Assembly: GCA_020060625.1 (NCBI GenBank)
Contig: JAGUZU010000068.1
Location: forward strand, 1-32,900
Source of the DNA: Anaerolineales bacterium
GTDB lineage: Bacteria; Chloroflexota; Anaerolineae; Anaerolineales; Villigracilaceae
Direction of reading: 5' to 3'
Length of the DNA stretch: 32,900 nucleotides
Of the stretch, positions 17,703-32,311 are shown one piece after another. A program made the translations under genes and the position numbers. The notes beneath the pieces were generated by a model. The model made no database searches. It was not told the DNA's origin and was given only the letters and a program-made list of their open reading frames with translations. Every line of letters starts with the position of its first letter. Position 1 is the stretch's first letter.

Positions 17703-18143
17703 CTACTCAACCTGCTGTATCATCTCTGTCAACTCATGGATTGACAACAAGATCTGCCCACTTTTCTCGTTGTCAATCAGCAAAGCTAAGTCATCCAGCC
17801 AGTGAAATCGGGTGGCGATCATGGCATCCACAAGTTTCTTTCCATGTTCCCCCAGTTCTATTTGGCGGACCCGCCTGTCGTCAGTTCCTTCATATCTCCG
17901 CACCAGATGTTCCAGTTCCAGTTTCCTGATAAGCTGACTGGCTGCTGCGTTGGTCGTCCCCAATTTTTCGGCAATATCAGAAACATTGCTTTTTCCTTTG
18001 TAATAAAGATGCATAAGTATTGAAATCTGGGAAAAAGAAATATTCCGGTCGCGCGTAAAAGCCAGCAGACCTTTCATGCTTTGGCGCATGGATTCCTCCA
18101 TGAATTTTCGAAGTTCGTTTGATAGGGTGGCGGCTTTTGTCAC
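17703..18143 (-). CDS. MarR-family transcriptional regulator
   Basis: A 146-residue winged-helix regulator, usual MarR length. The wing and recognition-helix region reads SDIAEKLGTTNAAASQLIRKLE, then HLVRRYEGTDDRRVRQIELGEHG, which is the MarR signature (DxRxxx at about residues 84-92). The start is GTG at 18143: on the minus strand AAGGAG lies 6 bases before it. It diverges from the winged-helix regulator at 18249 with about 105 bases between, a typical arrangement for a MarR protein that controls itself and its neighbour. Two relatives are in the window: a broken copy at 26503-26895 and an intact, more distant one at 31865-32311. The ligand is unknown. Confidence 0.92.
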   Translation of the reverse strand: MTKAATLSNELRKFMEESMRQSMKGLLAFTRDRNISFSQISILMHLYYKGKSNVSDIAEKLGTTNAAASQLIRKLELEHLVRRYEGTDDRRVRQIELGEHGKKLVDAMIATRFHWLDDLALLIDNEKSGQILLSIHELTEMIQQVE

Positions 18144-18219
18144 AACGCGCTCCTTGCGTTACGGTGATAGTGTAACATTATTTCATCTTCATGGATTGGG
18201 ATTGCTTCATCAGGGAGCA

Positions 18220-18247
18220 TGATATAATATTTTCGGAATTTTCGGAA
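18220..18247 (+). promoter_or_regulatory. Extended -10 promoter with tandem TTCGG repeats (copy A)
   Basis: TGATATAAT at 18220-18228 is a perfect extended -10; the -35 region is weak. Immediately after it, TTTTCGGAA is repeated in tandem at 18230-18238 and 18239-18247, so TTCGG recurs at a 9-base period and overlaps the expected RNA start. The leader before ATG 18249 would be only about 14 bases. The same layout occurs at 26973-26998, which supports function. A repressor bound to the repeats would block RNA polymerase. Confidence 0.7.
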
Positions 18248-18248
18248 G

Positions 18249-18953
18249 ATGTCTGTAAAACTTACCCGACGACAACAAGAGGTATTAAGCAAGCTTCTGG
18301 ATCTCTACCATGAAGGCGGAGAGCCCATTCATTACACCACGCTTGCAAAACACCTTCGAATTAGCCCGGTCAGCGCTTATGAAATGTTGCGCCTTCTCGA
18401 AGCGCATGGGATGGTTGAAGCGGAACACCAACGTCCTGATCAGCCTGGCGGACCTGGACGGCCAACCATAGCATTTCGTCCCACGCTTGCCGCCGTCCGA
18501 AGACTGCGAACATTAGCTGGAAGCGATTTACGCAACGAGGAAGAATGGCAGCAAGTAAAAAAACGTATCCTGCAACAAATTGAGAATTACCGGGACAAAG
18601 ACCTCGAAAGCCTCCTGGATAAATTGCTCGAACACATCCCAGGTGAAAACGTATCGCTCCCGAATCTGGCGAACATTACAACCGCCATTTTGCTCAATTT
18701 GAATTTAATGGATGAACATGAGGATATAACCAATGTGCGAAAGGCTTTTTTGAACCGGGAACTCTCGGTAGCTGCCAGCATAAGCGCCTTGATCGGGCTT
18801 GGATTTAGCCTTGCCATCTCGAAACGACTTTATTTTCGTTTAGGAAGCCTGTTGCTGAGCAGAGCGGGCCAGATTCTATCGGCAGTTTCCACATTGAACG
18901 CAGAGAAGTTGAACCGTCTTGCTGATTTGCTGCGGGAAGTTGTGCGTGCGTAG
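18249..18953 (+). CDS. Winged-helix DNA-binding protein of unknown family (copy A)
   Basis: A 234-residue protein. Residues about 4-60 form a convincing winged helix: LTRRQQEVLSKLLDLYHEGG, then TTLAKHLRISPVSAYEMLRLLEAHGMVEAE, followed by a Gly/Pro-rich turn (GGPGRPTIAFRP). Residues about 80-234 are helical, with a hydrophobic stretch near 180-192 (AASISALIGLGFSLAI) and a leucine-rich end. I do not recognise a named family; by position it is the likely regulator of the block. It is about three-quarters identical to the protein at 27002-27709. GGAAG lies directly against the ATG, so initiation may be near-leaderless. It probably binds the TTCGG repeats, but MarR is an equally possible binder. 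Confidence 0.85.
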   Translation: MSVKLTRRQQEVLSKLLDLYHEGGEPIHYTTLAKHLRISPVSAYEMLRLLEAHGMVEAEHQRPDQPGGPGRPTIAFRPTLAAVRRLRTLAGSDLRNEEEWQQVKKRILQQIENYRDKDLESLLDKLLEHIPGENVSLPNLANITTAILLNLNLMDEHEDITNVRKAFLNRELSVAASISALIGLGFSLAISKRLYFRLGSLLLSRAGQILSAVSTLNAEKLNRLADLLREVVRA

Positions 18954-18988
18954 CAAGTCTACTTTGATAACTTTTTTTACTCTATTTT

Positions 18989-19002
18989 TTCGGTTTATTC
19001 GG
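18989..19002. promoter_or_regulatory. TTCGG-N4-TTCGG repeat before the thioesterase gene (copy A)
   Basis: TTCGGTTTATTCGG stands between the regulator and the thioesterase gene with the same 9-base period as the promoter repeats at 18232-18245. The equivalent place in copy B (27741-27754) keeps it as TTCGGTTTATTTGG. It is a candidate second operator. Confidence 0.5.
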
Positions 19003-19040
19003 AAATTCACCAACCCAATAACAAAGGATTGAAACACTTA

Positions 19041-19517
19041 ATGAAGAAATTACCCGCTCATGGTTCTTGTTTCGTATGCGGTTCGGAAGATTCGTCGGGT
19101 ATGGGTGTCACCTGGTACGCGCAAGACGACAATTCGATTTTTGCCGAAGTGATGTTGACCCGCGCCCAGCAGGGCCCGCCCGGTTTCGCGCACGGCGGCG
19201 CATCTGCCGCTCTGCTGGATGAAGCCATGGGCGCGGCGATCTGGCAAGCTGGGTATCGCGTCGCTTCGGTAAACCTCAACATTACATACCATAAGCCTGT
19301 GCCGCTTGGCCAGCCGTTCAAGGTCACGGCGCAGTTAAAGGAATCCAATGGAAAGAAGGTTACCGCCGTCGGTGAAATCCGTTTAGCGGACGGAGCGCTG
19401 GCTGTCAGCGGCGAAGGACTCTTCGTCCATGCTCCACAGTTGTTCCACAGCCTGGGAGCGGAAACCGGCGGAATGTCGAGGCATGAAACGAAAGGACGCA
19501 GAAAAGCGGAGAAATGA
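19041..19517 (+). CDS. PaaI-like hotdog-fold thioesterase (copy A)
   Basis: A 158-residue hotdog-fold protein expected to hydrolyse acyl-CoA or other acyl thioesters. The family motif is FAHGGASAALLDEAMGAA with His51 and Asp60-Glu61, and the central strand reads VNLNITYHKPVPLGQPF. A CxxC pair (Cys10, Cys13) opens the protein, as in the CFVCG-type branch of this family. ATG 19041 is chosen by match with copy B, which starts with the same MKKLPAHG; AAAGGA lies 12 bases upstream, a little far. Its stop overlaps the next gene as ATGA, so translation is coupled to the membrane protein. Copy B (27979-28485) has Gln in place of His51. Confidence 0.9.
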   Translation: MKKLPAHGSCFVCGSEDSSGMGVTWYAQDDNSIFAEVMLTRAQQGPPGFAHGGASAALLDEAMGAAIWQAGYRVASVNLNITYHKPVPLGQPFKVTAQLKESNGKKVTAVGEIRLADGALAVSGEGLFVHAPQLFHSLGAETGGMSRHETKGRRKAEK

Positions 19518-20185
19518 AGATGCAGGTGAAAAACCTTTACTGCGTAGGCTTGTTCGCCGTCGCCATGGCATACGTTGAATCGGCAGTGGTGGTCTATCTG
19601 CGGAAGATCTATGGCATCAGCGACCTCATCCTCAGTGTTCCTCATTTCGATCCGCAAATCGGAGCCATTGAGGCGGGCAGGGAACTGGCAACGCTGGTCA
19701 TGCTGCTGGCTGTTGGCTGGGCGGCCGGGAGGAAGTTTCAGTCGCGCCTGGGATTTGCTGTTTTCGCTTTCGGTGTATGGGACATCTTCTATTACATCTG
19801 GCTCAGGGTTTTCATTGGCTGGCCGCAAACGGCATTCGACCCTGACCTCCTTTTCCTGTTGCCACTTCCATGGTGGGGACCTGTGCTTGCGCCTGTGCTG
19901 GTTGCCCTGCTGATGGTCATGGTGGGAGCGATCTTAATACGAAAGGACGCGCACGGGCTTGATGTGCACCCGACCTTCTTGGATTGGTCAACCCTGATTG
20001 CCGGCGTGATCATTGTCCTATACTCATTCATGTCTGACGCTCTTGCCGCCCTACCCGCCGATACACAAACACTCAGTCAATTACGCCCTTCTGAATTCAA
20101 CTGGCCTGTTTACCTGGTTGGGCTTGCGATGTTGGCTCTGTTTGTCTGGCGTATGGGCAAACCAGCAGAAGCGAAGATGGACTAA
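19514..20185 (+). CDS. Membrane protein of unknown function
   Basis: A 223-residue protein with about six hydrophobic segments (about residues 8-25, 50-70, 75-100, 112-137, 155-172 and 195-212). A conserved-looking start, YVESAVVVYLRKIYG, carries Glu and Arg within or next to the first segment. I do not recognise the family. It overlaps the thioesterase stop by 4 bases (ATGA) and the next MFS start by 1 base (TAATG), so the three are translated as a coupled unit. Copy B has lost it together with the MFS gene. Confidence 0.85.
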   Translation: MKMQVKNLYCVGLFAVAMAYVESAVVVYLRKIYGISDLILSVPHFDPQIGAIEAGRELATLVMLLAVGWAAGRKFQSRLGFAVFAFGVWDIFYYIWLRVFIGWPQTAFDPDLLFLLPLPWWGPVLAPVLVALLMVMVGAILIRKDAHGLDVHPTFLDWSTLIAGVIIVLYSFMSDALAALPADTQTLSQLRPSEFNWPVYLVGLAMLALFVWRMGKPAEAKMD

Positions 20186-21393
20186 TGGAACAGAACAATA
20201 GACTCCGCAAGTTACATCCCAATATTTGGATTGTTACTGCTACATCGCTTCTCACGGACATCTCTTCAGAGATGATTGTCTATCTCATTCCATTGTTCCT
20301 CTCCAACGTGTTGGGCGTGCGGATGGCATTCATTGGTTTGATTGACGGTGTTGCAGAGACAACGTCCAGTTTGCTCAAGGTGTATTCGGGTGCGCTCTCC
20401 GATAAACTGGGTCAACGCAAGCGGCTGACGGTGATTGGATATGGCATCTCCGCCATTGCCAAGCCGTTCCTCTATTTTGCAAATACATGGGGATGGGTCA
20501 TGGGCGTGCGTTTTGCAGACCGCGTAGGCAAGGGCATTCGCACCGCGCCGCGCGACGCGCTCGTAGCCGCCAGTACCGATGAAGGCAATCGCGGTTTTGC
20601 TTTCGGTTTTCATCGGGCGGGGGATACGGCAGGCGCCTTTATAGGCATTGCCATTGCCGCGTTGATTGTCTGGCTGACACAGGCGGGAGACTTGCAGATC
20701 ACACGCACCACATTTCAAACTGCGGTGTTGGTCAGCGTCATCCCTGGTGTGTTGGCGGTCATTGTTTTAGGGTTGGGAGCAAAAGATTTGGGAGGAGCAG
20801 GCAGCATGTCAGACGCGAAGCGCTTGTCTTTTAAGGAGTTCGATCCCCGTTTCAAGACCTTCCTCTTTATTGTGGTCATCTTCACGCTTGGGAATTCATC
20901 CGATTCTTTTATTATTTTACGCGCGCAGGAACGCGGTTTGAATGTGCTGCAAACATTATTCATGTTGATGACATTCACCGCGGTCTATGCGATCTTATCC
21001 AGCAGGCTCGGCGCGCTCTCCGATAAAGTGGGGCGGCGAAGAATGATCATCGCTGGCTGGCTCATGTATGGGCTGGTGTATCTGGGATTTGCATTTGCAC
21101 AGGCGGGCTGGCAAATCTGGTTGATGTTCGGACTCTACGGAATTTACTACGCCGCCACAGAAGGCGTTGCCAAGGCGTTCGTTGCCGACCTTGTGCCGGA
21201 TGCGCAGCGCGGCGCCGCCTATGGACTCTTCAACGCCGCGATTGGAATCACTGCTCTCCCCGCTTCGCTTCTTGCGGGACTTTTATGGCAGGGATTCGGT
21301 CAATGGATGGGATTCGGCCCCTCAGCCCCTTTCCTGTTTGGCGCGGCGCTGGCTTTGTTTGCAAGCACGCTGTTATGGCGGCGCGTTAAGTAA
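20185..21393 (+). CDS. Major facilitator superfamily transporter
   Basis: A 402-residue carrier with about 12 membrane segments. The helix 2-3 loop reads YSGALSDKLGQRKRLTVIGYG (about residues 70-90), and FADRVGKGIRTAPRDALVAAS (about 111-131) is a strongly conserved stretch in one group of bacterial MFS proteins of uncertain substrate. A second loop, LGALSDKVGRRRMIIAG, occurs in the second half. It is coupled to the preceding membrane protein by a one-base overlap. It is not similar to the MFS at 6507-7847 beyond the superfamily. Substrate unknown; a drug or lipid-like compound would fit a MarR-controlled block, but that is inference. Confidence 0.92.
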   Translation: MEQNNRLRKLHPNIWIVTATSLLTDISSEMIVYLIPLFLSNVLGVRMAFIGLIDGVAETTSSLLKVYSGALSDKLGQRKRLTVIGYGISAIAKPFLYFANTWGWVMGVRFADRVGKGIRTAPRDALVAASTDEGNRGFAFGFHRAGDTAGAFIGIAIAALIVWLTQAGDLQITRTTFQTAVLVSVIPGVLAVIVLGLGAKDLGGAGSMSDAKRLSFKEFDPRFKTFLFIVVIFTLGNSSDSFIILRAQERGLNVLQTLFMLMTFTAVYAILSSRLGALSDKVGRRRMIIAGWLMYGLVYLGFAFAQAGWQIWLMFGLYGIYYAATEGVAKAFVADLVPDAQRGAAYGLFNAAIGITALPASLLAGLLWQGFGQWMGFGPSAPFLFGAALALFASTLLWRRVK

Positions 21394-21481
21394 CTCATGC
21401 GCAAAACCTGAAGATCGTTTCTCCCGTTTCAAAAAGGTGCCCACGCACAGAATCTCGTCAATTCCACTTATGGAGGCAGTT

Positions 21482-22147
21482 TTGAAAATTCGTTATCTTG
21501 GCCATTCCTGTGTAGAAATTACCTGCAAGCATCATATCCTGATTGATCCCGACTTTACCCGCGATCCCGAGCCGGGTGTGGAATACATTTGCATTACCCA
21601 TGCGCACAAAGACCATATAGGCCGAGTGGCCGATGTGCCAAGCGGAATCGTTCTCGCCTCGCCGGATGTCTGTGAAATCGCGGCCGGACTCGGGGTCCCG
21701 CGTGAACGCTTGCATCCTGTTGTGCCGGGCGAGCAGGTTGCCAACATCCGGGTTCTGCCCGGATACAGCCGCGTCAACGACCCGATTTACACGTTTTTCA
21801 GCCTCTTATTTCGCTGGCGGCTTCCCGATCCCGGCGGCACGCCGCTTTCCTTCCTGGTGCAGGATGAAGCCGACCTGCTGCATATCGGCGACGCGCACGA
21901 AGCGCCGCTTCCAATATCCCCCGATATTCTATGCCTGCCCTGGCGCACTACCCCCTTTGGCGCCAAACGCTATAAACACATCTTGATTCGAATGGCAAAC
22001 CGATTCGCCGCGCCCTACATCCTGCCCATTCATTATGACCTGCCCGGCACCGAAGCCGACCCACGCGAACTTACCAAACAGGTGAATTCGACTGTGCTGG
22101 AAGGCAAAGGCTGGTACGGTTTCCATGAAAAGAAAAAGGACGGCTGA
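21482..22147 (+). CDS. Metallo-beta-lactamase-fold hydrolase (copy A)
   Basis: A 221-residue metal-dependent hydrolase of the UlaG/YtnP-like MBL superfamily. The N-terminus KIRYLGHSCVEI is the first strand. The metal motif is intact as THAHKDH (His40, His42, Asp44, His45), followed by LLHIGDAHEAP (Asp ligand) and ILPIHYDL (His ligand). The start is TTG 21482: GGAGG at 21472-21476 lies 5 bases upstream, and copy B has the same GGAGG-N5-TTG layout and exactly the same length. An in-frame ATG at 21470 would remove that site. A reaction cannot be assigned from the sequence. Confidence 0.88.
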   Translation: MKIRYLGHSCVEITCKHHILIDPDFTRDPEPGVEYICITHAHKDHIGRVADVPSGIVLASPDVCEIAAGLGVPRERLHPVVPGEQVANIRVLPGYSRVNDPIYTFFSLLFRWRLPDPGGTPLSFLVQDEADLLHIGDAHEAPLPISPDILCLPWRTTPFGAKRYKHILIRMANRFAAPYILPIHYDLPGTEADPRELTKQVNSTVLEGKGWYGFHEKKKDG

Positions 22148-22238
22148 AGGATGCAATGGATAACTCTTGATTTGTCCAATCCGGGTTCTATTTCCTTTGG
22201 ACTGCTACAAAGAAAAATTAAGGAGTGAATAACCTGTA

Positions 22239-22913
22239 ATGAAAATTTTACTTATCACCAACACCCTTGTCACTTTTTTTGGCTCCTACATATTAGGAGC
22301 AATACCTTTCGGATTACTGCTGGTTCGCTGGAAAACCGGGCAGGATGTGCGCCTGATTGGGAGCGGACGCACCGGCACGACCAATGCCTTGCGCGCTGCG
22401 GGTCCTGCCATTGCCATACTAACATTGCTCTTGGATGTTTTCAAAGGAGCCAGCGCCGTATGGCTGGCACATTGGCTGACGCCTGATAATGCCTGGTTGG
22501 AAATTCTTGCCCCCTTGGCAGCCATCCTGGGTCACAATTATTCCATTTTCCTTACCGAGCGTGACGAAGATGGACGGTTGCGCTTACGCGGAGGGGCTGG
22601 GGGTGCGCCTGCTTTAGGCGGGGCTTTAGGTTTATGGCCGACGAGTTTCCTGATCTTAATTCCAATTAGCATATTGATCTATTTTGGCGTGGGGTACGCA
22701 TCTGTAACAACGATGACCGTCCCTCTAATAGCTATCATCCTTTTTGCGGTACGTGCCTGGCAAGGTTATTCCCCGTGGGTCTATGTTTTGTATTGCCTAA
22801 TTGTAGAAGCGCTTTTGCTTTGGGCATTGCGTCCGAATATCCGTAATCTACTTGATGGCACAGAACGCGGTGTTGGTTGGCGCGCCAAGAGGAAAGGAGC
22901 AGGATCTAAATAG
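22239..22913 (+). CDS. plsY: PlsY-like glycerol-3-phosphate acyltransferase
   Basis: Membrane enzyme of 224 residues that transfers an acyl group from acyl-phosphate to glycerol-3-phosphate in phospholipid synthesis. Motif 1 reads IGSGRTGTTNALRAAG (residues about 41-56), motif 2 LLLDVFKG (about 68-75) and motif 3 LGHNYSIF plus RLRGGAGGAPALGG (about 103-135). Two places differ from the consensus as I know it: SGN is SGR in motif 1 and GGKG is GGAG in motif 3; an ERDEDGR insertion precedes the latter. Five or more membrane segments are visible. It stands next to degV, which binds fatty acids, so a lipid role fits. It may be a divergent subfamily with altered activity. Confidence 0.85.
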   Translation: MKILLITNTLVTFFGSYILGAIPFGLLLVRWKTGQDVRLIGSGRTGTTNALRAAGPAIAILTLLLDVFKGASAVWLAHWLTPDNAWLEILAPLAAILGHNYSIFLTERDEDGRLRLRGGAGGAPALGGALGLWPTSFLILIPISILIYFGVGYASVTTMTVPLIAIILFAVRAWQGYSPWVYVLYCLIVEALLLWALRPNIRNLLDGTERGVGWRAKRKGAGSK

Positions 22914-22991
22914 GAGAGTAAACGCTCAGAATAATGTTGTCCACTTCCAATCGCATTAAACCATTCCATTGATCAACCAAAGGAGATTATT

Positions 22992-23846
22992 ATGTCGGCA
23001 AAGAAAAAAGTTGCAGTTGTTGCAGATGGAGCATGTTCCTTGACCCCTGCGCAAGGTCTGCAATATGGGATGCATGTTGTCCCTGTCCATTTAAACTTTG
23101 AGGATAAAAACTTTCAAGTGGGTGTAAATTTGGATGCAAAAGAATTCTATACTCTTTTGCGCGCCAGCAAGAAACTGCCCACCACCGCCCAACCTACGGC
23201 GCAGGATTTCATTAATGTGTACAGCAAACTGGCGCAGGATGCGGAGGAAATTGTTACAGTGACCATTTCCGATAAGATGAGCGCCACACTGCAATCGGCA
23301 TTGATGGCGAATGAGCAGTTTAAGGATGTGCCTGTTCATATCGTCAATTCAGAGAATGTTTCGCTTGGGTTTGGAATGATGGCGATTGCCGCAGTCCGCG
23401 CGGCAGAGAATGGAAAGAACGCCAAAGAGGTGGTTGAGCTATTGGAGCGCATCAAGCAAAATATGAATCTGTTTTTCACCGTGGAAACACTTGAATACCT
23501 CCACAAAGGAGGGCGCATTGGAGGGGCAACTGCCTTTCTTGGGTCGGCACTAGCCATCAAACCAATTCTTTACGTTAAGGAAGGGCGAATCGAGCCCTTG
23601 GAACGCGCCCGTACCCGTAAGCGCGCGGTTGCGCGCCTATTTGAATTGGTGGAGGAAAAGATTGGTTCAAAGGAAACTCACTTCGCCGTGCTGCACTGCG
23701 AAGCGGAATCTGAAGCGCGAGAATTTGGAGAACAATTGAAGGCTAAATTTAATTGCGCGGACCTGATGATTGCAGAGGCTGGACCCGTAATCGGCACCCA
23801 TGCAGGGCCTGGTACACTAGGTGTTGCTTTTTACACATTAGCATGA
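22992..23846 (+). CDS. DegV-family fatty-acid-binding protein
   Basis: A 284-residue protein of the DegV/FakB family, which binds a fatty acid and, with the FakA kinase, presents it for phosphorylation to acyl-phosphate. Visible landmarks are VVADGACSLTP (start), TTAQPTAQDF (about residue 57-66), TVTISDKMSATLQSA (about 89-103), SLGFGMMA, and LEYLHKGGRIGG (about 166-177). The end GPVIGTHAGPGTLGVAFY is the normal DegV end. AAAGGAG before ATG 22992 is a strong ribosome site. Product acyl-phosphate would be the substrate of PlsY encoded just upstream. No fakA gene is in this window. Confidence 0.93.
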   Translation: MSAKKKVAVVADGACSLTPAQGLQYGMHVVPVHLNFEDKNFQVGVNLDAKEFYTLLRASKKLPTTAQPTAQDFINVYSKLAQDAEEIVTVTISDKMSATLQSALMANEQFKDVPVHIVNSENVSLGFGMMAIAAVRAAENGKNAKEVVELLERIKQNMNLFFTVETLEYLHKGGRIGGATAFLGSALAIKPILYVKEGRIEPLERARTRKRAVARLFELVEEKIGSKETHFAVLHCEAESEAREFGEQLKAKFNCADLMIAEAGPVIGTHAGPGTLGVAFYTLA

Positions 23847-23851
23847 TATTG

Positions 23852-23890
23852 ATATCAACAGACTTTCATTGAATAAAAGTCTGTTGATAT
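23852..23890 (+). terminator. Perfect 15-bp hairpin after degV
   Basis: ATATCAACAGACTTT (23852-23866) is followed by its exact reverse complement at 23876-23890 with a 9-base loop. It begins 5 bases after the degV stop. There is no T-run after it, so it is either a weak terminator or a 3'-end stabiliser. Confidence 0.55.
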
Positions 23891-23898
23891 ATTGCTTG

Positions 23899-23910
23899 GA
23901 GTAGCTACTC
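23899..23910. promoter_or_regulatory. 12-base palindrome upstream of the sirtuin gene
   Basis: GAGTAGCTACTC is a perfect palindrome in the degV-sirtuin spacer, 58 bases before the sirtuin start. TATACT at 23931-23936 could be a -10, but no good -35 is seen. It may be an operator; a chance palindrome of this length cannot be excluded. Confidence 0.3.
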
Positions 23911-23967
23911 AGCATGACCAGATGCCTGATTATACTGTGATAATAAACGAGTTTTGGTAAAATTGAA

Positions 23968-24771
23968 ATGTCTCAACTTGATGCCTCTCACGAAATTCTT
24001 CAAGCCGCCTCTCTGATGGCAAAAAACAAACGAGTCATAGCATTCACAGGCGCGGGGATGTCCACCCGTTCAGGTGTCCCTGATTTCCGCAGCCCGGGGA
24101 CAGGTCTATGGGTGCATCTGGAGGCTGCCGGAACGGACGAAACGCAGTCTGGCACTATTCAGGCATTCGGGCGCGACCCTCAGACCTTCTACGAGCACAT
24201 GAAGCCTCTCTTCCAGAAGATCCTCTCTGCCGAACCAAACGCCGCCCATTACGCTCTGGCTGAACTCGAAACTAGGGGAATCATTCATACTGTCATCACA
24301 CAAAACGCTGACCTGCTTCAACAGCGGGCCGGCTCGAAAAACGTTATTGAAGTTCACGGCTCACTGGCTGAAGCCACGTGTATACAGTGTTACAAGGTCA
24401 AACCATTCCCTCCTTTGCTGGATCAATTTTTATCCGATGGCATCATGCCGCGCTGCCAAGAATGCGGAGGGGCGATGAAGCCAAACATTATTCTGACAGG
24501 AGAACAGCTGCCAGTTCGGGCCATGCTAGCCGCCCAACAAGCCCTCCGCCGCGCCGACATCCTGCTAATTGCCGGAACATCCCTGGCAGGCGGGCCGGCA
24601 ACAGCGCTAGTTGATCGCGCATATTTGCAAGGCTCGAAACTGATTATCATCAACCAAACACCCACTTTGCTGGATCATGTTGCTGACGTTGTGGTTCACG
24701 ATGATGTGGTGAAAGTTTTGCCAGCAATAAAGGCAACTTTGCAAAAATTGAAAGAGGGTCCCCATGTATAG
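23968..24771 (+). CDS. Sir2-family NAD-dependent protein deacylase (sirtuin)
   Basis: A 267-residue sirtuin, removing acyl groups from protein lysines with NAD. Motifs in order: FTGAGMSTRSGVPDFRSP (NAD site, about residues 27-44), TQNADLLQQRAG (about 111-122), EVHGS with the catalytic His (about 129), a zinc site from CIQC and CQEC, GTSLAGGPA (about 211) and INQTPT (about 235). The usual TQNIDGLH is changed to TQNADLLQ, keeping Asn and Asp. There is no strong ribosome site before ATG 23968. The stop overlaps the next gene by 8 bases. A broken relative is at 29151-29545. Confidence 0.93.
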   Translation: MSQLDASHEILQAASLMAKNKRVIAFTGAGMSTRSGVPDFRSPGTGLWVHLEAAGTDETQSGTIQAFGRDPQTFYEHMKPLFQKILSAEPNAAHYALAELETRGIIHTVITQNADLLQQRAGSKNVIEVHGSLAEATCIQCYKVKPFPPLLDQFLSDGIMPRCQECGGAMKPNIILTGEQLPVRAMLAAQQALRRADILLIAGTSLAGGPATALVDRAYLQGSKLIIINQTPTLLDHVADVVVHDDVVKVLPAIKATLQKLKEGPHV

Positions 24772-25306
24772 GCTGATTTCAGCCCGAGCTTTATATATAT
24801 TGAGAAGCCTAAACCATACCCCGATGACCAAAAAACAGCTGTCTAGGTATCTAAATTTCATGTCGATTTTGGGACAGGCCGATGATGCCGATCTTGCAAG
24901 TATCGACCGTGATGTCAGGTTCCTGCAACGTTGGGGGTTGATTCAATGGGCACGTCAGCAACAGGATATACATCGTATCTATCACATTACAGAAATGGGT
25001 CGCAGGTTCCTAAAAGATTGCATCCTAATCGAATCCAATCGTTTTTTCGAAGAATATCGTGGTTTTACTTCAGTTGCGACAATATTGGACCTCCCGGGAA
25101 AAAATGAGCGTAACCAGTATATCAACATGCGTCGGGCTTTTATAAATAAGATGATTGGCGAACTCAGGAAATCGCAGTCTGTATTGGGGAAAAAAGAAAG
25201 GGCCCGTGGACTCTTGATTCAATACCATCTCTATCGCTTGCAAGGCGAACTTGGGTGGTTGCGGGATATCAGCGGCTCACAGGGGGCGCAAAATGAGCAG
25301 AAATAG
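24764..25306 (+). CDS. Unknown protein with HTH-like N-terminus
   Basis: A 180-residue basic protein. Residues about 6-75 (ARALYILRSLNHTPMTKKQL, then DVRFLQRWGLIQWARQQQD and YHITEMGRRFL) have the look of a PadR/MarR-like winged helix: helix, helix, wing strands ending in a Thr-Glu-x-Gly turn. The C-terminal part is helical and charged. I do not recognise the family and call it HTH-like by pattern only. It overlaps the sirtuin gene by 8 bases and the small CxxC gene by 14, so the three form a tight operon. Copy B has lost almost the whole gene by a deletion that leaves only its last few codons. Confidence 0.75.
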   Translation: MYRLISARALYILRSLNHTPMTKKQLSRYLNFMSILGQADDADLASIDRDVRFLQRWGLIQWARQQQDIHRIYHITEMGRRFLKDCILIESNRFFEEYRGFTSVATILDLPGKNERNQYINMRRAFINKMIGELRKSQSVLGKKERARGLLIQYHLYRLQGELGWLRDISGSQGAQNEQK

Positions 25307-25562
25307 AATAAGCTGGATTGGTTCACCTAAAGAAGACCCCTCAAAGGTTACATGGATTGGAGATGCATTGGATTCATCAAACACCATTGAGCTATATTGC
25401 GAGAAATGCCGGAAAGTGACAGTATGGTTGCTGGTGCGGGAAAGCAAACTAACTAGCAGTGACTTCATAACAGAAAATGCACTGTTGGATGGCAGTGCAG
25501 GGGTATTTTTCGCACACTATAGAATCTGCACAGAATGTGAAACAAAAATCAGATATCATTAA
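25293..25562 (+). CDS. Small double-CxxC protein, probably zinc-binding (copy A)
   Basis: An 89-residue protein with two CxxC pairs, YCEKC (about residue 40) and ICTECE (about 80), which together could bind one zinc. Between them is a Trp-Leu-Leu strand and an acidic stretch (SSDFITENALLDGSAG). ATG 25293 is preferred because GGGGG at 25282-25286 lies 6 bases upstream and the following sequence matches copy B from this point. It overlaps the preceding gene by 14 bases. Function unknown; the family is not recognised. A decayed relative lies at 29573-29856. Confidence 0.7.
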   Translation: MSRNRISWIGSPKEDPSKVTWIGDALDSSNTIELYCEKCRKVTVWLLVRESKLTSSDFITENALLDGSAGVFFAHYRICTECETKIRYH

Positions 25563-25716
25563 TCACGCGTAACTGCTTGATCTGCTGTTTAATCTGAATA
25601 TGGTTTTTTATCGCCAACCCTGGAAGAAGTTTGCTGATCCAGTTCTTTTCGTGTCTGATGCACGTATTGACACGATCCTGGCTTTTATAATTCTTTTTTG
25701 CAACAGCTTGTGTTCG

Positions 25717-26286
25717 CTACTGAAAAAAATCTTTTATTCTTCGCAAAACCTGTTCCTTTGCATCATTGGCTTCGAGGCTACTGAGACTCTTGAGGCAGCC
25801 TTGAGCCACGGACTGGGCGCTTTCCGTTGAGGGGTGAGTTGCCCTCGCCTCAACACAATGCTGAAAAAATCTTTTGGCGTCGGCCGTTTGACCTTTTGTG
25901 ACGGCGATAAACCCCAGACCCAGGGATAGGTTTATGAATACGTTGTGCTCGATATCCGTCTGTGGCGGTTGGCAATGGGTAAACAGCTCTTGGGCTTTAT
26001 TGAGACACCGACCAGCATTTTGATAGAAGAAAAGTTCCCGCAGCCGATCACCGTTCTGCGATGCCGTTATTCCCAATCGAATGTATTGACCTGTAATGGC
26101 GTCATAGCATGAGCAAGCCAAGAGAGCAGCTTGTCTCATGCTGAAACGGTTCTGAGATGCAACTTCCGCAAAAAACGTTTCTTCCATTGAGAAAATAGTA
26201 TCGAGTGTTTGTTCAGCCAAGAGCAAGTCGCCACGCTCGGCATATTTAACTACGAGTTGCATGGTGTTCAACAGCAAATTTTTCAT
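25717..26286 (-). CDS. Helical TPR-like protein of unknown function
   Basis: A 189-residue, all-helical protein on the minus strand. Repeating pattern of aromatic and small residues (ERGDLLLAEQTLDTIF, then YYQNAG-like FFYQNAGRCLNKAQELF, and GFIAVTKGQTADAKRFFQHC) resembles two or three TPR units; this is pattern recognition only. There is no signal peptide or membrane segment. No good ribosome site precedes ATG 26286. It stands alone between the two copies of the duplicated block and is convergent with copy A. The 154 bases on its left and the 216 bases on its right show no other gene. Confidence 0.7.
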   Translation of the reverse strand: MKNLLLNTMQLVVKYAERGDLLLAEQTLDTIFSMEETFFAEVASQNRFSMRQAALLACSCYDAITGQYIRLGITASQNGDRLRELFFYQNAGRCLNKAQELFTHCQPPQTDIEHNVFINLSLGLGFIAVTKGQTADAKRFFQHCVEARATHPSTESAQSVAQGCLKSLSSLEANDAKEQVLRRIKDFFQ

Positions 26287-26502
26287 CAGTACTCATTGCC
26301 TGCTGCAGCAAAATTTATTTGTAATAACTTTTGTTTCCAGTAGTACCTATGATAGAACATGAGCAAAGTCATTCGTGTGCAAGGAGCATTTTGGGGAAAG
26401 TCATTTTGTCAATTGTCTGTAATTTTTATTAAAATGTACAAAGAGTTGCGTGTTCTCCTATTGATTATCGTTGGCATGGGTGTATCTGCCAGCCTGGTTC
26501 TC

Positions 26503-26895
26503 TCATGAGCAATCCACCTTCTCGTTGTCAACCAGCAAAGAAAAGTCATCCAACCACCGAAAACGGCTTTCTGGGGGAGCATCCACAAGCTCCCAACCGT
26601 TATTCGCCCGTGCTATCTGACGGACTCGCCTGTCAGCAGTTCCTTCATGTCTTTTCACAAGGTGGTCTTGCTCCAGCTTTTTGATGAGCTGACTGGCTGC
26701 TGCGCGGGTCGTCCACCGATTTGTGCCAATATCATAAACGGTGCTTTTCTTTATCGTAAAGAAGCACGAGCACAGCGATTTGATGCGAGGAAATATTGTC
26801 GCGCACAAAAGCCAAGATTCCTTTCATTTTCTGGCGCATAATACTCTCTGCCAATATTCGGAGTTCCTGTGGGATGGGAACTGTTTTTTTATCAT
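26503..26895 (-). pseudogene. MarR-family regulator, frameshifted (copy B)
   Basis: The minus strand carries a MarR relative of the gene at 17703-18143 in pieces. One frame reads LRILAESIMRQKMKGILAFVRD (compare LRKFMEESMRQSMKGLLAF); the match then shifts frame at about 26740-26750 and resumes as AAASQLIKKLEQDHLVKRHEGTADRRVRQ. The last 27 or so codons are missing, because the frame ends VDNEKVDCS. The start of copy A (GTG) aligns with ATG at 26895, but the first codons are also out of frame with the rest. It is not expected to make a working repressor. Confidence 0.85.
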
Positions 26896-26972
26896 GATTG
26901 TGCTCTAGGCCTTGCACTTCTTGCTCTACCCATGAATCCTTATACACGTGGTTTACTCGATCTTGGGAGGCA

Positions 26973-26998
26973 TGATATAATATTTTTGGAATTTTCGG
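26973..26998 (+). promoter_or_regulatory. Extended -10 promoter with tandem repeat (copy B)
   Basis: TGATATAAT at 26973-26981 is identical to copy A. The repeat follows as TTTGG (26985-26989) and TTCGG (26994-26998), period 9, just before ATG 27002. This conservation, while the adjacent MarR gene decays, points to regulation by something other than the lost MarR. Confidence 0.7.
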
Positions 26999-27001
26999 AA
27001 G

Positions 27002-27709
27002 ATGTCTGCCAAGCTAACCCGCCGCCAACTAGAGGTATTGAGCAAACTTCTGGATCTCTACCACCAAAATGGGGAGCCGATACATTACACCGCCTTGGCA
27101 GAACATCTGGGGGTAAGCCCGGTGAGCGCCTATGAAATGCTGCGTATACTTGAGACACATGGAATGGCTGATGCAGAACATCAACGTCCCGAACCGGCAG
27201 GCGGACCAGGACGTCCCACGGTAGCATTTCGCCCCTCGTTGGCTGCCATCCAAAGATTGCGAACGTTGACCGGAGGTGACATTCGCAACGAGGAAGAGTG
27301 GCAGCAAGTAAAGAACCGCATTTTGCAGCAGATTCAGAACTACCAGAGTCAAGATCTCGAAAAGCTCCTTGATAGGTTAATCGAACATATCCCGGAAGAA
27401 ACTGTATCGCTCCCGAATCTAGCAAATATTGCAACAGCCATTTTGCTCAATTTGAATTTGATGGGTAAACAGGAAGAAGTAACTAATGTGCGTAGGGCTT
27501 TTGCGAACCGGGAACTGTCAGTAATGGCCAGACTGAGCGCGTTACTTGGGCTGGGATTCAGTCTTGCCGTCTCGAAACGGCTTTACTTTCCTTTGGGCAG
27601 TCTCTTGTTGAGTCGAGCGGGCGAGATCCTTTCGGCCGTTTCGACTTTGAGTACGGAGAGATCGAATCGCTTAGCCGATTTGCTTCGCGAGGTCTCGCGT
27701 ATTCAGTGA
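27002..27709 (+). CDS. Winged-helix DNA-binding protein of unknown family (copy B)
   Basis: A 235-residue paralogue of the protein at 18249-18953, collinear over its whole length and about three-quarters identical. The winged helix (LTRRQLEVLSKLLDLYHQNG, then LAEHLGVSPVSAYEMLRILETHG) and the GGPGRPTVAFRP turn are kept. It is the only clearly intact, conserved product of copy B's first half, so it may still bind the same repeats and cross-regulate copy A. GGAAG abuts the ATG, as in copy A. Family not recognised. Confidence 0.85.
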   Translation: MSAKLTRRQLEVLSKLLDLYHQNGEPIHYTALAEHLGVSPVSAYEMLRILETHGMADAEHQRPEPAGGPGRPTVAFRPSLAAIQRLRTLTGGDIRNEEEWQQVKNRILQQIQNYQSQDLEKLLDRLIEHIPEETVSLPNLANIATAILLNLNLMGKQEEVTNVRRAFANRELSVMARLSALLGLGFSLAVSKRLYFPLGSLLLSRAGEILSAVSTLSTERSNRLADLLREVSRIQ

Positions 27710-27740
27710 GCCACTCCGACCCTTTTTTTTGTCCGATTGT

Positions 27741-27754
27741 TTCGGTTTATTTGG
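27741..27754. promoter_or_regulatory. TTCGG-type repeat after the regulator gene (copy B)
   Basis: TTCGGTTTATTTGG matches the site at 18989-19002 with one change (TTCGG to TTTGG in the second unit). It lies downstream of the regulator stop, about 225 bases from the thioesterase because of the insertion at about 27780-27960. Confidence 0.45.
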
Positions 27755-27866
27755 AAATCACGGTAAGGATTTTACATGAGGTACATATGAGAACATTCGG
27801 ATTTGTTGGATGGTGGTAGTCTTGTCACTCCGATTGTTTGCAATAGCGCTGGCGGATGTGGAATTT

Positions 27867-27947
27867 GCCCGTCTCTGGCACCGTGTTGATCCTCGTCACG
27901 CCGCGCATAGTTCTCTAGCTCAACGGCGAGGCCGGCCAAAGACGGGC
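27867..27947. repeat. Imperfect inverted repeat in an inserted segment
   Basis: GCCCGTCTCTGGC (27867-27879) and GCCAAAGACGGGC (27935-27947) are reverse complements with one mismatch. Inside them GTTGA and TCAAC also pair, so the 81 bases could fold into a long interrupted hairpin. The spacer between regulator and thioesterase is 269 bases here and 87 in copy A, so about 180 bases were added. It may be a small mobile-element footprint or a structured RNA. Confidence 0.5.
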
Positions 27948-27978
27948 ATATTATAGTGAAGCTTGAGCGGTACGCACG

Positions 27979-28485
27979 ATGAAAAAGTTACCTGCTCATG
28001 GACCTTGTTTCGTATGCGGTTCGGAAGATGAACCGGAAATGGGTGTAATTTGGTATGTGCTGGAAGACGGCTCAATTTTTTCTCAAGCGATGTTCAATCA
28101 CGTTCAAAAGGGTCATCCAGGGTTTGGGCAAGGCGGCGCATCGGCCGCTTTACTGGATGAAGCTATGGGCATGGCGATCTTGCTGGCTGGCTACCGTGTC
28201 GCCCCAGTTAACCTGAACATAAATTATCACAAACCTGTTCTGTTCGGACAATCGTTCGCGGTCATGGCGCAAGTAAAGGAAGCATATGGAAAGAAGATCA
28301 CCGCCTCAGGCGAAATTCGCTTGCTGAATGGAACGTTGGCCGTTAGTGGCGAAGGAATTTTCGTGCAGGCTCCGCAGTGGTTTCAAGTCGTGGAAGCAGG
28401 CGTAGGCATAACGCCGAGTACCGAAAGAAAGTCCTGGAGCGAAGAGATGAGCGGAGAGGAAAAGATTTTCTGGAGGCTGAATTGA
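27979..28485 (+). CDS. PaaI-like hotdog-fold protein, His-to-Gln variant (copy B)
   Basis: A 168-residue paralogue of 19041-19517. The N-terminal CFVCG pair is kept (Cys10, Cys13) and the family motif reads FGQGGASAALLDEAMGMA, so His51 of copy A is Gln51 while Asp60-Glu61 remain. The central strand VNLNINYHKPVLFGQSF is conserved. The C-terminus is about 10 residues longer than in copy A and covers the ribosome site of the next gene; its stop overlaps the TTG start of that gene (TTGA). No good ribosome site is seen before ATG 27979. Thioesterase activity may be reduced or changed. Confidence 0.85.
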   Translation: MKKLPAHGPCFVCGSEDEPEMGVIWYVLEDGSIFSQAMFNHVQKGHPGFGQGGASAALLDEAMGMAILLAGYRVAPVNLNINYHKPVLFGQSFAVMAQVKEAYGKKITASGEIRLLNGTLAVSGEGIFVQAPQWFQVVEAGVGITPSTERKSWSEEMSGEEKIFWRLN

Positions 28486-29147
28486 AGCTTCGATATCGCG
28501 GTCACTCCTGCGTAGAAATCAAAGGGAGGCATCATATTTTGATCGACCCGGATTTCACGCGTGAGCCAGATCCAGGCGTGGAATATATCTGCGTTACCTA
28601 CGGTCATCGACATCACATCGGGCGCATAGCGGACGTGCAAACGGGAACTGTGCTTGCTTCGCTGGATGTATGTGAAATTGCCGGACGCATGGGCGTGCCG
28701 CGCAATCGATTACATCCGGTTAAGCCTGGGGAAAAAGTCGGTCCTGTCAAGATCCTGCCGGGCTTCATTCCATTCGACGATTTTGTTAATACGTTTTTCA
28801 AGGTGCTCTTCCTAGGGCGTCAGCCCGATCCGGGAGGCACACCGCTCTCTTTCCTGGTGGAGGATGAAATCAGCCTGCTACACATCGGGGATACCCACCG
28901 GGCGCCTCTGTCGGAATGCCCTGACTTGCTCTGCCTACCCTGGCACACGCCTCCCTTTCGTGCAGATCACTATAAAAATACACTCATTGAAATGGTAAAT
29001 TACTTCTCACCTCGTTATATCCTGCCGATTCATTATGATCTGGAACATACTCAGGCGGATCCCCAGGAAATCGATGGGCGTACCAACGCGGTTCTTCTAA
29101 ATGGATACGGCTGGTATGGATTTACGAATAAAAAGCTGGCAGACTAA
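28482..29147 (+). CDS. Metallo-beta-lactamase-fold protein with altered metal motif (copy B)
   Basis: A 221-residue paralogue of 21482-22147 with identical length. The metal motif THAHKDH of copy A is here TYGHRHH: His40 is Tyr and Asp44 is His, while His42 and His45 remain. The later ligands GDTH and ILPIHYDL are kept. Start TTG 28482 follows GGAGG (28472-28476) by 5 bases, as in copy A. It overlaps the thioesterase stop by 4 bases, so it is translationally coupled to it. The altered motif suggests lost or changed metal binding; the frame is otherwise intact. Confidence 0.85.
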   Translation: MKLRYRGHSCVEIKGRHHILIDPDFTREPDPGVEYICVTYGHRHHIGRIADVQTGTVLASLDVCEIAGRMGVPRNRLHPVKPGEKVGPVKILPGFIPFDDFVNTFFKVLFLGRQPDPGGTPLSFLVEDEISLLHIGDTHRAPLSECPDLLCLPWHTPPFRADHYKNTLIEMVNYFSPRYILPIHYDLEHTQADPQEIDGRTNAVLLNGYGWYGFTNKKLAD

Positions 29148-29150
29148 TTC

Positions 29151-29545
29151 ATGTCATTTTTCCTTTTGATGATTTCTAATGCATTTACCGGAGCGGACAG
29201 GTTCACCGCTTCAGGCGTCCCTGACTTCCGCAGCCCGGAGACGGGACTGTGGGCGCGGGCAGAAGCTTTGCAGGAGGGGGGATTTGAGATGGGGACTCTG
29301 CAAGGTTTCTACCGCGCCCTCAGGTATGCTTGAAGAGTTTCGAATCGCTCTTCAATGCAAGATTTGCAGCAGAGCCTAATGTAGCGTACTGCACCCCTCC
29401 CGGGTTATGCCTGCCTGCTATGTCAGCAAGCCGATTCCAAAAATGCGATTGAACTACATGGCACAATGGAAGAAGTTGTATACATCTCTTGTCACAAAGT
29501 AAATCCATCCAAGTCATTTCTGGAACAATTCCTGCGTGGTGTAAG
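29151..29545 (+). pseudogene. Sirtuin remnant (copy B)
   Basis: Fragments of a Sir2 gene in different frames. FTGADRFTASGVPDFRSPET (starting near 29185) matches the NAD-site region of the protein at 23968-24771 but lacks the GAGMS core, and the frame stops after about 60 codons. Further on, QQADSKNAIELHG, then EEVVYISCHKVNPSKSFLEQF matches the catalytic-His and first zinc half. The C-terminal half is absent, replaced directly by sequence homologous to the end of the HTH-like gene and the CxxC gene. It cannot make a sirtuin. Confidence 0.85.
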
Positions 29546-29572
29546 ATTTCAGCGGCCCACCCGGGCTGCAAA

Positions 29573-29856
29573 ATCAACAGAAATAGAATAGGCCACCTAG
29601 GCTTACTAAAAGTACTGTGCCTGGAGACTCGTCAAAGAAGGAAATGGATTCATCAAACACCGTTGAACTATATTGCGAGAAATGTCAGAGGGTGAAAGTA
29701 TGGTTGCTTATGTGGGAAAGCAAATCAACTAGCTGTGGCTTCATAACAGGAAATGCACTGTTGGAGGGCTGGGCAGGAGTATTTTTCTCGCTATATGGAA
29801 TCTGCTCGGAATGCGAAACGAGAATCCTGTCTCACGAGACCTGGGTACGGTACTGA
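29573..29856 (+). pseudogene. Small double-CxxC gene, start codon lost (copy B)
   Basis: Nucleotide-level relative of 25293-25562. The ATG of copy A is ATC at 29573 here and the frame shifts before codon 28. From about 29643 the homologous frame is open to 29856 with both CxxC pairs kept (YCEKC, ICSECE). A shortened protein from ATG 29643 or GTG 29617 is possible (about 71-79 residues), so decay may be incomplete. The 3' end runs on a further 14 residues compared with copy A. Confidence 0.7.
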
Positions 29857-29903
29857 TTGGCTGTTCAAGGCATTTTTATATCCGTAACCCGAAAGGGATG
29901 TTG

Positions 29904-31823
29904 ATGAAAATACTGTTATTCATACTTGTTGGACTTTTGGGACTTGTGTATGCCCTGTATTACTGGCGGGAAATCCGCCCGGAAATTAACACTCGACGCA
30001 ACTTATCCACTCTGGGGGAAGAAGCTCCTCTCCTCCAAGAGGACGGTATCACATTTCGGGATCTGAATAAAAACGGGCGACTTGACCCTTATGAAGACCC
30101 GCGCTGTTCCGTTGAAGATAGGGTGGAAAATCTCTTGTCACAGATGACCTTGGAAGAAAAAGCAGGCATGATGTTCCATACCATGATCGGCATGAATGAC
30201 GATGGCTCATTGCAGGAGAGGGGTATTCTCATGCCGCCATCGTCCGACCTGATCGTCGGCCGGCTCATGAATCACTTCAATGTGCTCCAAACTGCTGAAC
30301 CGCGCCAGATGTCGGAATGGTACAACCGCATTCAAAAATTGGCAGAACGAACACGATTAGGCATCCCTATCACGATTTCATCCGATCCCCGGCATGCCGT
30401 CACTCAGAACCCGGCGACCACCATGCTGGCGGGGCAGTTCTCCCAATTCCCCGAGCAGACTGGACTTGCCGCTGCACGCGATGTTGAACTGGTTCAACAA
30501 TTTGCCGATATCGCCCGGCAGGAATACCTGGCGGTAGGCATTCGCCTGGCATTGCATCCGATGGCAGACCTGTCCACCGAGCCGCGGTGGGGTCGGGCGA
30601 ACGGTACGTTCGGCGAAGACGCCGACCTTGCCTCTGAGATGATTGCCGCTTATATCCGTGGCTTTCAAGGGGAGCGGTTGGATGCGCAAAGCGTTGCCTG
30701 TATGACCAAACACTTCCCAGGCGCGGGTCCGCAGAAGGATGGTGAGGACGCGCACTTCCCTTATGGCAGGGAACAAGTCTATCCCGGCGGAAAGTTTGAA
30801 TATCACTTGAAACCGTTTGAAGCGGCGTTAAATGCCGGCACGGCGCAGATCATGCCATATTATGGAGTGCCGGTTGGTCTTCCGTTTGAAAAGGTCGGCT
30901 TTGGTTTTAACAAGGATGTCATCACCGGCCTGCTACGAGAGAAATACGGTTTCGATGGTGTGGTCTGCACAGCTTGGATGCTCATCAACCCGGTCAAGGT
31001 AATGGAACGTGAACTTATTCCTGCCAGAGCCTGGGGGGTGGAGCATCTATCAGCGGCTGGACGCATTCAAAAGGCCATTGAGGCGGGCGTGGATCAGTTC
31101 GGAGGCGAGGCATGTCCCGAAGTCCTTGTGGCACTGGTTCGCAGTGGTAGGATCAAGGAGGAGCGGATTGACCAATCCGTTCGCCGCCTGCTGCGAGATA
31201 AGTTTCGCCTGGGATTGTTCGACGATCCTTACGTTGATCCTCATATCGCTGAACAGACCGTTGGCAACCCTGAATTTCGCAAGGTTGGGGAACTTGCCCA
31301 GCGCAAATCCATCGTATTGTTGAAAAACGAAAAAGGGATCCTCCCGCTCAAGGGTGAGTTGAAGATTTACGTTGAGAATATTAATCCCGAAACCGCCAGC
31401 CAGTATGCGCAGGTCGTCAATAACCTGGCTGATGCAGACGTTGCCATTCTGCGCCTGAACGCTCCATATGAGAAACTCAAAGGTTTAATGGAGAGTTATT
31501 TCCATACCGGCGATCTGGATTTCAAAAGCAGGGAAAAGGAGCATATTTTGGATGTAATGAGCCGTGTGCCCACGATTGTTGATATTTACCTGGAACGCCC
31601 CGCGGTCATCCCCGAGATTGCTGAACAGAGTGCCGCCCTGCTGGCGAATTTTGGCGCAAACGATGGCGCGGCGCTGGATGTAATTTTTGGCAAATTTGCG
31701 CCCCAGGGGAAACTCCCCTTTGAATTACCCGCATCGATGGAAGCCGTGCGAAGGCAAAAAGAAGATGTGCCCTATGACTCTGAGAATCCATTGTTCCCAT
31801 TCGGGCATGGGTTGATCTATTAG
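29904..31823 (+). CDS. Membrane-anchored GH3 family protein lacking the nucleophile Asp
   Basis: A 639-residue glycoside hydrolase family 3 protein. A single N-terminal membrane segment (residues 2-20) anchors it outside the cell. An EF-hand-like loop, DLNKNGRLDPYE (about 48-60), precedes the barrel, whose landmarks are LEEKAGMMF, EPRWGRANGTFGED, KHFPGAG (Lys-His pair) and GFDGVVCTAWM. In GH3 the last stretch normally holds the catalytic Asp (SDW or TDW); here codon GCT at 30972 gives Ala357. The second domain ends FPFGHGLIY. Length is within the family range. ATG 29904 is chosen because AAAGGG at 29892-29897 is 6 bases upstream; ATG 29898 is an alternative. Function may be sugar binding, not hydrolysis. 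Confidence 0.9.
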   Translation: MKILLFILVGLLGLVYALYYWREIRPEINTRRNLSTLGEEAPLLQEDGITFRDLNKNGRLDPYEDPRCSVEDRVENLLSQMTLEEKAGMMFHTMIGMNDDGSLQERGILMPPSSDLIVGRLMNHFNVLQTAEPRQMSEWYNRIQKLAERTRLGIPITISSDPRHAVTQNPATTMLAGQFSQFPEQTGLAAARDVELVQQFADIARQEYLAVGIRLALHPMADLSTEPRWGRANGTFGEDADLASEMIAAYIRGFQGERLDAQSVACMTKHFPGAGPQKDGEDAHFPYGREQVYPGGKFEYHLKPFEAALNAGTAQIMPYYGVPVGLPFEKVGFGFNKDVITGLLREKYGFDGVVCTAWMLINPVKVMERELIPARAWGVEHLSAAGRIQKAIEAGVDQFGGEACPEVLVALVRSGRIKEERIDQSVRRLLRDKFRLGLFDDPYVDPHIAEQTVGNPEFRKVGELAQRKSIVLLKNEKGILPLKGELKIYVENINPETASQYAQVVNNLADADVAILRLNAPYEKLKGLMESYFHTGDLDFKSREKEHILDVMSRVPTIVDIYLERPAVIPEIAEQSAALLANFGANDGAALDVIFGKFAPQGKLPFELPASMEAVRRQKEDVPYDSENPLFPFGHGLIY

Positions 31824-31827: not shown

Positions 31828-31869
31828 ACATCGCCTGCTTCAGGACAAAGCAGGCGATGTAATTTTATT
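31828..31869 (+). terminator. Intrinsic terminator after the GH3 gene
   Basis: A 13-base-pair perfect stem (ACATCGCCTGCTT, 31828-31840, with its complement at 31848-31860) with a 7-base loop is followed by AATTTTATT. It lies between the convergent GH3 and MarR genes and mainly serves the plus strand. Confidence 0.8.
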
Positions 31870-32311
31870 GATTATCCAGGCTGCGCTCCGCTGTTATCAA
31901 ATCCCTTAGTGACACGGAGATTGTCTTCAGTTGCTTTTCGGAAAGTGCCAGGGGCAGCCTCTCAATCCACTGGTTGCGGACCTCAATTGCCTTTTCAATC
32001 AGGGCGCGCCCTTTGGCGGTTAGTGTTAATTGTCTGACCCGTCTATCCTTGGGGGATTCCGCCCTGTCAACCAATTGTTCTTCCACCAATCTATTTATCA
32101 ACTGACTGGCTGCCGCCACGGTGATATCCAAATGCTCACCCATTTCTGAGATGTCATTCGCGCCACGATAATACAGGTGCATCAGGATACCGAAATGAGA
32201 CAATGACAACCCTGATGCTTTGACAAAGTGCATGTAATTGCGCATGGATCGGCTGATAAACCGTTCGGACCATTCCATCAAAACCTTGTTGAATTCAATC
32301 GCATCCGTCAT
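31865..32311 (-). CDS. MarR-family transcriptional regulator
   Basis: A 148-residue intact MarR protein, related to the gene at 17703-18143 but more distant. The DNA-binding part reads NDISEMGEHLDITVAAASQL, then NRLVEEQLVDRAESPKDRRVRQLTLTAKG, with the DRRVRQ wing shared by all three MarR relatives in the window. GGAG precedes ATG 32311 on the minus strand. A single TTCGG lies just upstream at 32332-32336 without a second unit. It is convergent with the GH3 gene. It may regulate itself; the target set is unknown. Confidence 0.92.
   Translation of the reverse strand: MTDAIEFNKVLMEWSERFISRSMRNYMHFVKASGLSLSHFGILMHLYYRGANDISEMGEHLDITVAAASQLINRLVEEQLVDRAESPKDRRVRQLTLTAKGRALIEKAIEVRNQWIERLPLALSEKQLKTISVSLRDLITAERSLDNQ

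Follow-up and report, generated by a model that had tools for sequence, protein, structure and literature searches.

An open GH3 gene with alanine at the aligned catalytic nucleophile position, next to decayed genes, in an Anaerolineales genome

Results

A partial second gene row sits directly upstream of the GH3 gene

The window is the whole stretch of DNA that was analyzed (32,900 nucleotides). It holds a glycoside hydrolase family 3 (GH3) gene and, directly upstream of it, a partial second gene row MarR-HTH-4HBT-MBL-Sir2 (copy B, 26518 to 29540) that repeats members of a longer row (copy A). The features are as follows.

17703 to 25306, strand not assigned: copy A of the gene row, with open frames, identified by similarity, Pfam and reading.
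26518 to 26887, minus strand: MarR remnant, frameshifted and split over two frames.
27002 to 27709, plus strand: second winged-helix regulator (HTH2), 78% to copy A.
27979 to 28485, plus strand: second thioesterase-fold (4HBT) protein, 65% to copy A.
28467 to 29147, plus strand: second metallo-beta-lactamase-fold hydrolase (MBL2), open frame.
28599 to 28616, plus strand: YGHRHH at the metal-motif site of MBL2, with coordinates counted by hand from the alignment.
29181 to 29540, plus strand: Sir2 remnant, truncated, with an internal deletion and two in-frame stops, 47% to the Sir2 protein of locus L008 across its own length.
29904 to 31823, plus strand: GH3 protein of 639 amino acids, with a predicted N-terminal membrane helix and an intact open reading frame.
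30972 to 30974, plus strand: codon GCT for Ala357 at the aligned nucleophile column, where the other 82 of 83 non-identical family proteins have Asp.
31828 to 31860, plus strand: terminator-like hairpin of 13 pairs directly 3' of the GH3 stop, weak evidence by itself.
31865 to 32311, minus strand: MarR-family regulator (MarR2), open frame, 88% to L006 and 85% to L007.

Copy A reads MarR, HTH, 4HBT, membrane protein, MFS, MBL, PlsY, DegV, Sir2 and winged helix. Pfam was applied to the last four genes only, and the winged-helix match fell below the cut-off, so that name is a reading; MarR, HTH, 4HBT and MBL were named by similarity to copy B, and MFS and the membrane protein by reading. The open reading frame at 15761-17425, near the GH3 locus, we take to be sulfatase-like from its motifs. 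Terminator-like hairpins number three in the region, against a shuffle mean of 2.8.

In copy B, two genes (MarR and Sir2) are plainly broken and a third, MBL2, is without its metal motif, having YGHRHH where nine other rows compared, several of them nearly identical, have HAHKDH. An intact MarR of the remnant's type sits in copy A. At the five sister loci L006 to L010, GH3 comes after the row MBL, PlsY, DegV, Sir2 and winged helix, and every gene of this row matches in one piece, L009 and L010 being nearly identical to each other. The window has such a sister-like row, with open frames, in copy A at 21.5 to 25.3 kb. MarR2 likewise lies downstream of GH3 in L006 and L007, and apart from GH3 no window gene was found in the fetched flanks of L011 to L016.

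From MFS to DegV, the proteins of copy A share 97 to 99% identity with those of L008, as against 65% for Sir2 and 45% for the winged-helix protein. Positions 20562 to 23855 are 97.7% identical to L008, and beyond them the Sir2, winged-helix and GH3 proteins are at 45 to 75%, which marks a sharp mosaic boundary. The nearest relatives of the window GH3 protein are those of L006 and L007, not that of L008. Since copy A is close to L008 and the GH3 gene to L006 and L007, lineages appear to have swapped segments of the locus, and such exchange may also have produced copy B. In a search of 25307-29903 for a leftover L008-like GH3, the best match had an E value of 0.80.

Genes are broken outside the window too, since a membrane-protein gene at L009:315-964, also present in L010, matches in two overlapping pieces and may be frameshifted. 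As a separate observation, the near-identical Sir2 genes at L006:3374-4135 and L095:3-632 differ in about 20 residues that align only in another frame, a difference that is either real or a sequencing error.

Neutral decay of MBL2 had been expected and was rejected: the dN/dS of its branch was 0.076, and a value of 1 was excluded, in a comparison of six sequences and 222 codons with an analyst-set topology and a saturated branch length of 2.2. This low ratio argues against copy B having been in decay for long.

The GH3 protein has Ala at the nucleophile column in an otherwise conserved fold

The open reading frame at 29904-31823 is a GH3 member by descent, as judged from both Pfam domains and the predicted GH3 fold. 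The N domain was matched with an E value of 3.1e-41 (142.3 bits against a cut-off of 27) and the C domain with an E value of 6.4e-18 (65.9 bits against 31). The AlphaFold model has a mean pLDDT of 94.2 and predicts a helix at residues 2-35, in agreement with the membrane anchor proposed in an earlier sequence-only reading of this DNA. The KHFPGAG motif, the EF-hand-like DLNKNGRLDPYED and the long open frame listed in that reading are all present, and the motifs are common to relatives; 9 of the 83 rows have the Ala274 of KHFPGAG. An open reading frame check found neither frameshift nor stop nor truncation in the GH3 gene, which thus does not qualify as a pseudogene.

Translation of the frame confirmed that GCT at 30972-30974 encodes Ala357 within the peptide GFDGVVCTAWM. 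In the sequence alignment, this column pairs with the Asp of the GH3 beta-glucosidase 9ul7 (VVTDW), and in two mutant chains of SN243 it is occupied by Ala and by Asn, the mutations being D415A and D415N according to the PDB titles. The alignment identifies the column as that of the GH3 catalytic nucleophile, and the earlier claim that Ala stands where GH3 enzymes have Asp therefore holds. Active GH3 retaining glycosidases have an Asp nucleophile at the end of a barrel strand, a position taken by Ala357 in the window protein. Loss of a catalytic residue with conservation of the fold, which characterizes pseudoenzymes, is what the alignment and the AlphaFold model indicate.

D357A is the only private change of the window GH3 at well-filled columns where all other rows of the 83-row alignment agree, a count based on 109 well-filled columns with at most one exception; other rows have 0 to 4 private changes each. 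Two further departures, A137S and A224S, fall in columns where 95% or more of the rows agree. Lys269, His270 and Arg228 are present in 83 of 83 rows and Asp161 in 79, and the window protein keeps all four. By motif reading, Asp161, Arg228 and the Lys269-His270 pair are putative residues of the -1 subsite, and window residues would pair with those of the barley exohydrolase HvExoI, whose ligand contacts include Asp95, Arg158, Lys206 and His207 (PMC9508125). When the acid/base in domain 2 was looked for by eye in the alignment, no column clearly matched barley Glu491.

Residue 368, eleven residues from Ala357 and flanked by model strands 364-366 and 369-372, is Gly in 68 of 83 rows and in 90% of the rows outside the window lineage, and a Gly368Glu change arose on the window branch. 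The two strands are compatible with a place of residue 368 in the active site as well as outside it. Another carboxylate, such as this rare Glu368, or an external nucleophile could conceivably have taken over catalysis. We consider such a takeover very unlikely, as the nucleophile is described as strictly conserved across the Rhodothermus marinus beta-glucosidases and beta-xylosidases (PMC6987092) and as highly conserved in GH3 (PMC10995091).

Ala at the nucleophile column occurs in one species

A relative scan of GTDB species genomes gave 401 stretches encoding a relative, and the best 80 of these have 79 Asp and 1 Ala. The Ala belongs to L005 (Anaerolineaceae MAG SURF_68), which equals the window over 7,997 bases with zero differences, and the contig breaks of its genome differ from those of the window assembly. 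L005 is a second assembly of the window population, perhaps from shared reads. A column table of 83 rows, which adds the window gene (L001) and the second GH3 in L028 and in L038, contains 81 Asp and 2 Ala. A separate set of 83 non-identical proteins was made from the best 80 loci and from loci found in a search of 61 genomes, with identical proteins collapsed. In this alignment of close homologues, a check that the sequence-only reading had proposed, 82 of the 83 proteins have Asp and the 83rd is the window protein (via L005).

Because the source is a metagenome-assembled genome, an error of assembly or consensus, or a rare allele, might lie behind Ala357. Against this, two assemblies with different contig breaks, possibly from shared reads and so not surely independent, agree over 8 kb, and the title of L005 gives a read_count of 74004 on an 18,557-base contig, which is deep if these are mapped reads. 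An artifact or rare allele is hence scarcely probable.

In the two nearest relatives (88% identical), codon 357 is GAT, so that one A-to-C change accounts for Ala357, as had been suggested. A set of 110 other GH3 loci from 61 related genomes, comprising 30 returned by the search and 80 regions fetched by hand among the listed matches, with the window gene left out and a few members of its subfamily included, has 109 Asp and one Ser by automatic alignment. Loss of the nucleophile is thus sporadic but rare. The Ser is found in L243 (G051:C83:2900-4500), whose GH3 domain belongs to a protein of the long type with an open frame of 944 amino acids. The three other GH3 proteins of the window genome (L211, L212 and L213) have Asp. 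A further copy of the window GH3 subfamily was not found in the window assembly (98% complete), and no close paralogue would therefore cover the loss.

Candidate Ala members were also looked for with the pattern G-[VIM]-[VI]-C-[TS]-A-W, which is blind to relatives whose strand sequence differs. Among 400 same-phylum genomes, 24 had matches. Fifteen of the 25 listed matches were examined by tblastn, and the sole GH3 was the window's own gene; the match in L107 (E 0.81) was taken as chance. Six stretches in viral contigs carry the peptide pattern, and none of them encodes a relative. Plasmid records with a match numbered 522, all below 60% identity (best listed, 56.6%). Searches of open-licence PMC papers, among them ones for GH3 pseudoenzymes and for SN243, turned up no report of a natural nucleophile-less GH3.

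The window branch is under purifying selection

Using our own codon branch model (13 sequences, 615 codons, topology fixed from the family tree), we obtained a dN/dS of 0.120 for the window branch against 0.058 elsewhere (2dlnL 9.0). Taken alone this is significant, but the Asp-bearing sister lineage has a similar ratio (0.124, 2dlnL 12.3; stem alone 0.257, 2dlnL 7.0), and relaxation of the window branch was therefore rejected as evidence of decay. A dN/dS of 1 was excluded for the window branch (2dlnL 33.4), and the upper limit of its ratio lies between 0.18 (2dlnL 2.7) and 0.22 (2dlnL 5.7), the usual limit for 2dlnL being 3.84. Counted by parsimony, columns that are at least 90% conserved took 5 of the 30 changes on the window branch and 3 of 32 on three pooled sister branches, which is no excess (Fisher p 0.47).

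Since the window branch is under purifying selection and is no more relaxed than its sisters, either catalysis was lost recently or the fold continues to be maintained. The ratio of 0.12 spans the whole branch, before and after D357A; if selection ended at D357A, the upper limit would leave roughly the final tenth to seventh of the branch as neutral time.

The intact frame and the purifying selection would also fit a retained pseudoenzyme, in which catalysis was lost and the protein persisted as a binder or sensor of sugars anchored in the membrane. So would the presence of Asp161, Arg228, Lys269 and His270 in a fold predicted with high confidence, and the pseudoglycosidases of other families include binders of glycans or glycan-like ligands (PMC7828330) and an inactive beetle GH28 with a role (PMC6549527). 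However, the observed selection may wholly predate D357A, and nothing on the branch points to selection acting on the Ala state in particular or on binding. Ala is found in one species only, the neighboring genes are decayed, and the hydrophobic N-terminus that would suit a sugar-binding surface protein is similar in near Asp-bearing relatives. Retention of a pseudoenzyme, the main alternative explanation, is on this evidence rather unlikely.

Close relatives have other active-site changes

In the family tree, the window groups with L086 and L087, and the branch that is sister to this group consists of L008, L088 and L089. The latter three proteins have NSLH for DPRH at 161-164, with loss of Asp161 and Arg163, and L088 and L089 also have Gln for Trp358; the dN/dS of their stem is 0.068. 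Unusual active sites in such close relatives lend the retained pseudoenzyme some support. The GH3 orthologues at L008:5001-6923, L009:5001-6923 and L010:5001-6923 have NSLH for DPRH, and in those of L009 and L010 the Trp that follows the nucleophile is replaced by Gln as well. Asn161 is found in L064, and Tyr358 in L035 and L049.

In barley, mutation of Trp286, which by motif reading would pair with Trp358, to Ala or His gives folded, inactive enzymes (PMC9508125). On the other hand, SN243 has Asn at the Asp161 column in the alignment and was crystallized as a glucuronide-binding enzyme, so that NSLH need not mean inactivity.

The changes in L008, L088 and L089 keep alive the idea of a functional shift across the clade. 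In one Anaerolineales branch, the GH3 at the PlsY-DegV-Sir2-winged-helix locus might be changing from an enzyme into a sugar sensor or binder without catalysis, anchored in the membrane, with MBL2 changed in parallel. The evidence for it is the lost nucleophile of the window protein, the loss of DPRH or Trp358 in relatives, and the purifying selection on the branches tested. That GH3 and MBL2 both lost active-site residues while their folds stayed conserved could likewise mean that they changed their role together. Such a shift seems to us quite improbable.

Discussion

Cleavage by GH3 enzymes takes two steps, with a covalent glycosyl-Asp intermediate between them. This intermediate could not form with Ala at the nucleophile and hydrolysis would not proceed, and from the chemistry of the family the window GH3 has very probably lost this activity. 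The Ala357 protein would still fold and might still hold a sugar in the -1 pocket. The dead enzyme proposed in the sequence-only reading is well supported by the alignment, and the corresponding substitution was introduced deliberately in SN243 (D415A).

We propose that one missense change at the catalytic nucleophile recently inactivated a GH3 beta-glycosidase gene. Selection on the segment would have been relaxed in the window species, and D357A would be an early lesion, preceding any frameshift in the GH3 gene. Because the genes upstream are decayed, the GH3 gene is more likely to have been caught early in its loss than to encode a new sugar-binding protein. The occurrence of Ala in a single species, the one private change, the sister-like dN/dS and the decayed neighbors all fit a recent mutation best, so that this part of the earlier proposal is better supported than its sugar-binding alternative. 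In our judgment it is moderately probable, and the likeliest of the explanations weighed, that the inactivating D357A marks an early stage in the loss of the gene within a segment that is decaying. Several observations stand against early loss: the frame is unbroken and almost every conserved residue is in place, as in a retained protein, no close paralogue was found in the assembly, MBL2 is without overall relaxation, and MarR2 downstream is intact.

The window GH3 may show how an enzyme gene dies, with a hit to the active site preceding breakage of the frame. It is also a warning for annotation, as an intact GH3 frame need not mean a working enzyme. Were the shift across the clade true, a bacterial GH3 group would be moving toward sugar binding.

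The closest solved structure, both by sequence (675.5 bits) and by fold, is the GH3 beta-glucosidase 9ul7. The model of the window protein and 9ul7 share 51% identity and a two-domain layout (TM 0.89 and 0.95), and the two differ at the nucleophile column, where 9ul7 has Asp (VVTDW). The barley exohydrolase HvExoI has the same GH3 fold at 24-26% identity in the fold alignment and is an active enzyme, with Asp285 as nucleophile and Glu491 as acid/base (PMC9508125).

Glycosidase folds without catalysis are described for YKL-39, klotho and CyRPA (PMC7828330) and for a beetle GH28, inactive but with a role (PMC6549527). These pseudoglycosidases belong to other GH families and have functions shown or proposed, unlike the window GH3, which is a candidate.

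The likeness at the nucleophile is to SN243 D415A (7qea and 7qef), which has Ala at the aligned column (chain 7qea) and was crystallized with beta-glucuronides bound according to the PDB titles. Wild-type SN243 has Asp, as the names of the mutants indicate. SN243 D415A is a laboratory mutant of a longer enzyme, with 32-33% identity to the window protein in the fold alignment. The window GH3, seen beside decayed genes, is a natural counterpart of the Asp-to-Ala mutants made by crystallographers in GH3 enzymes.
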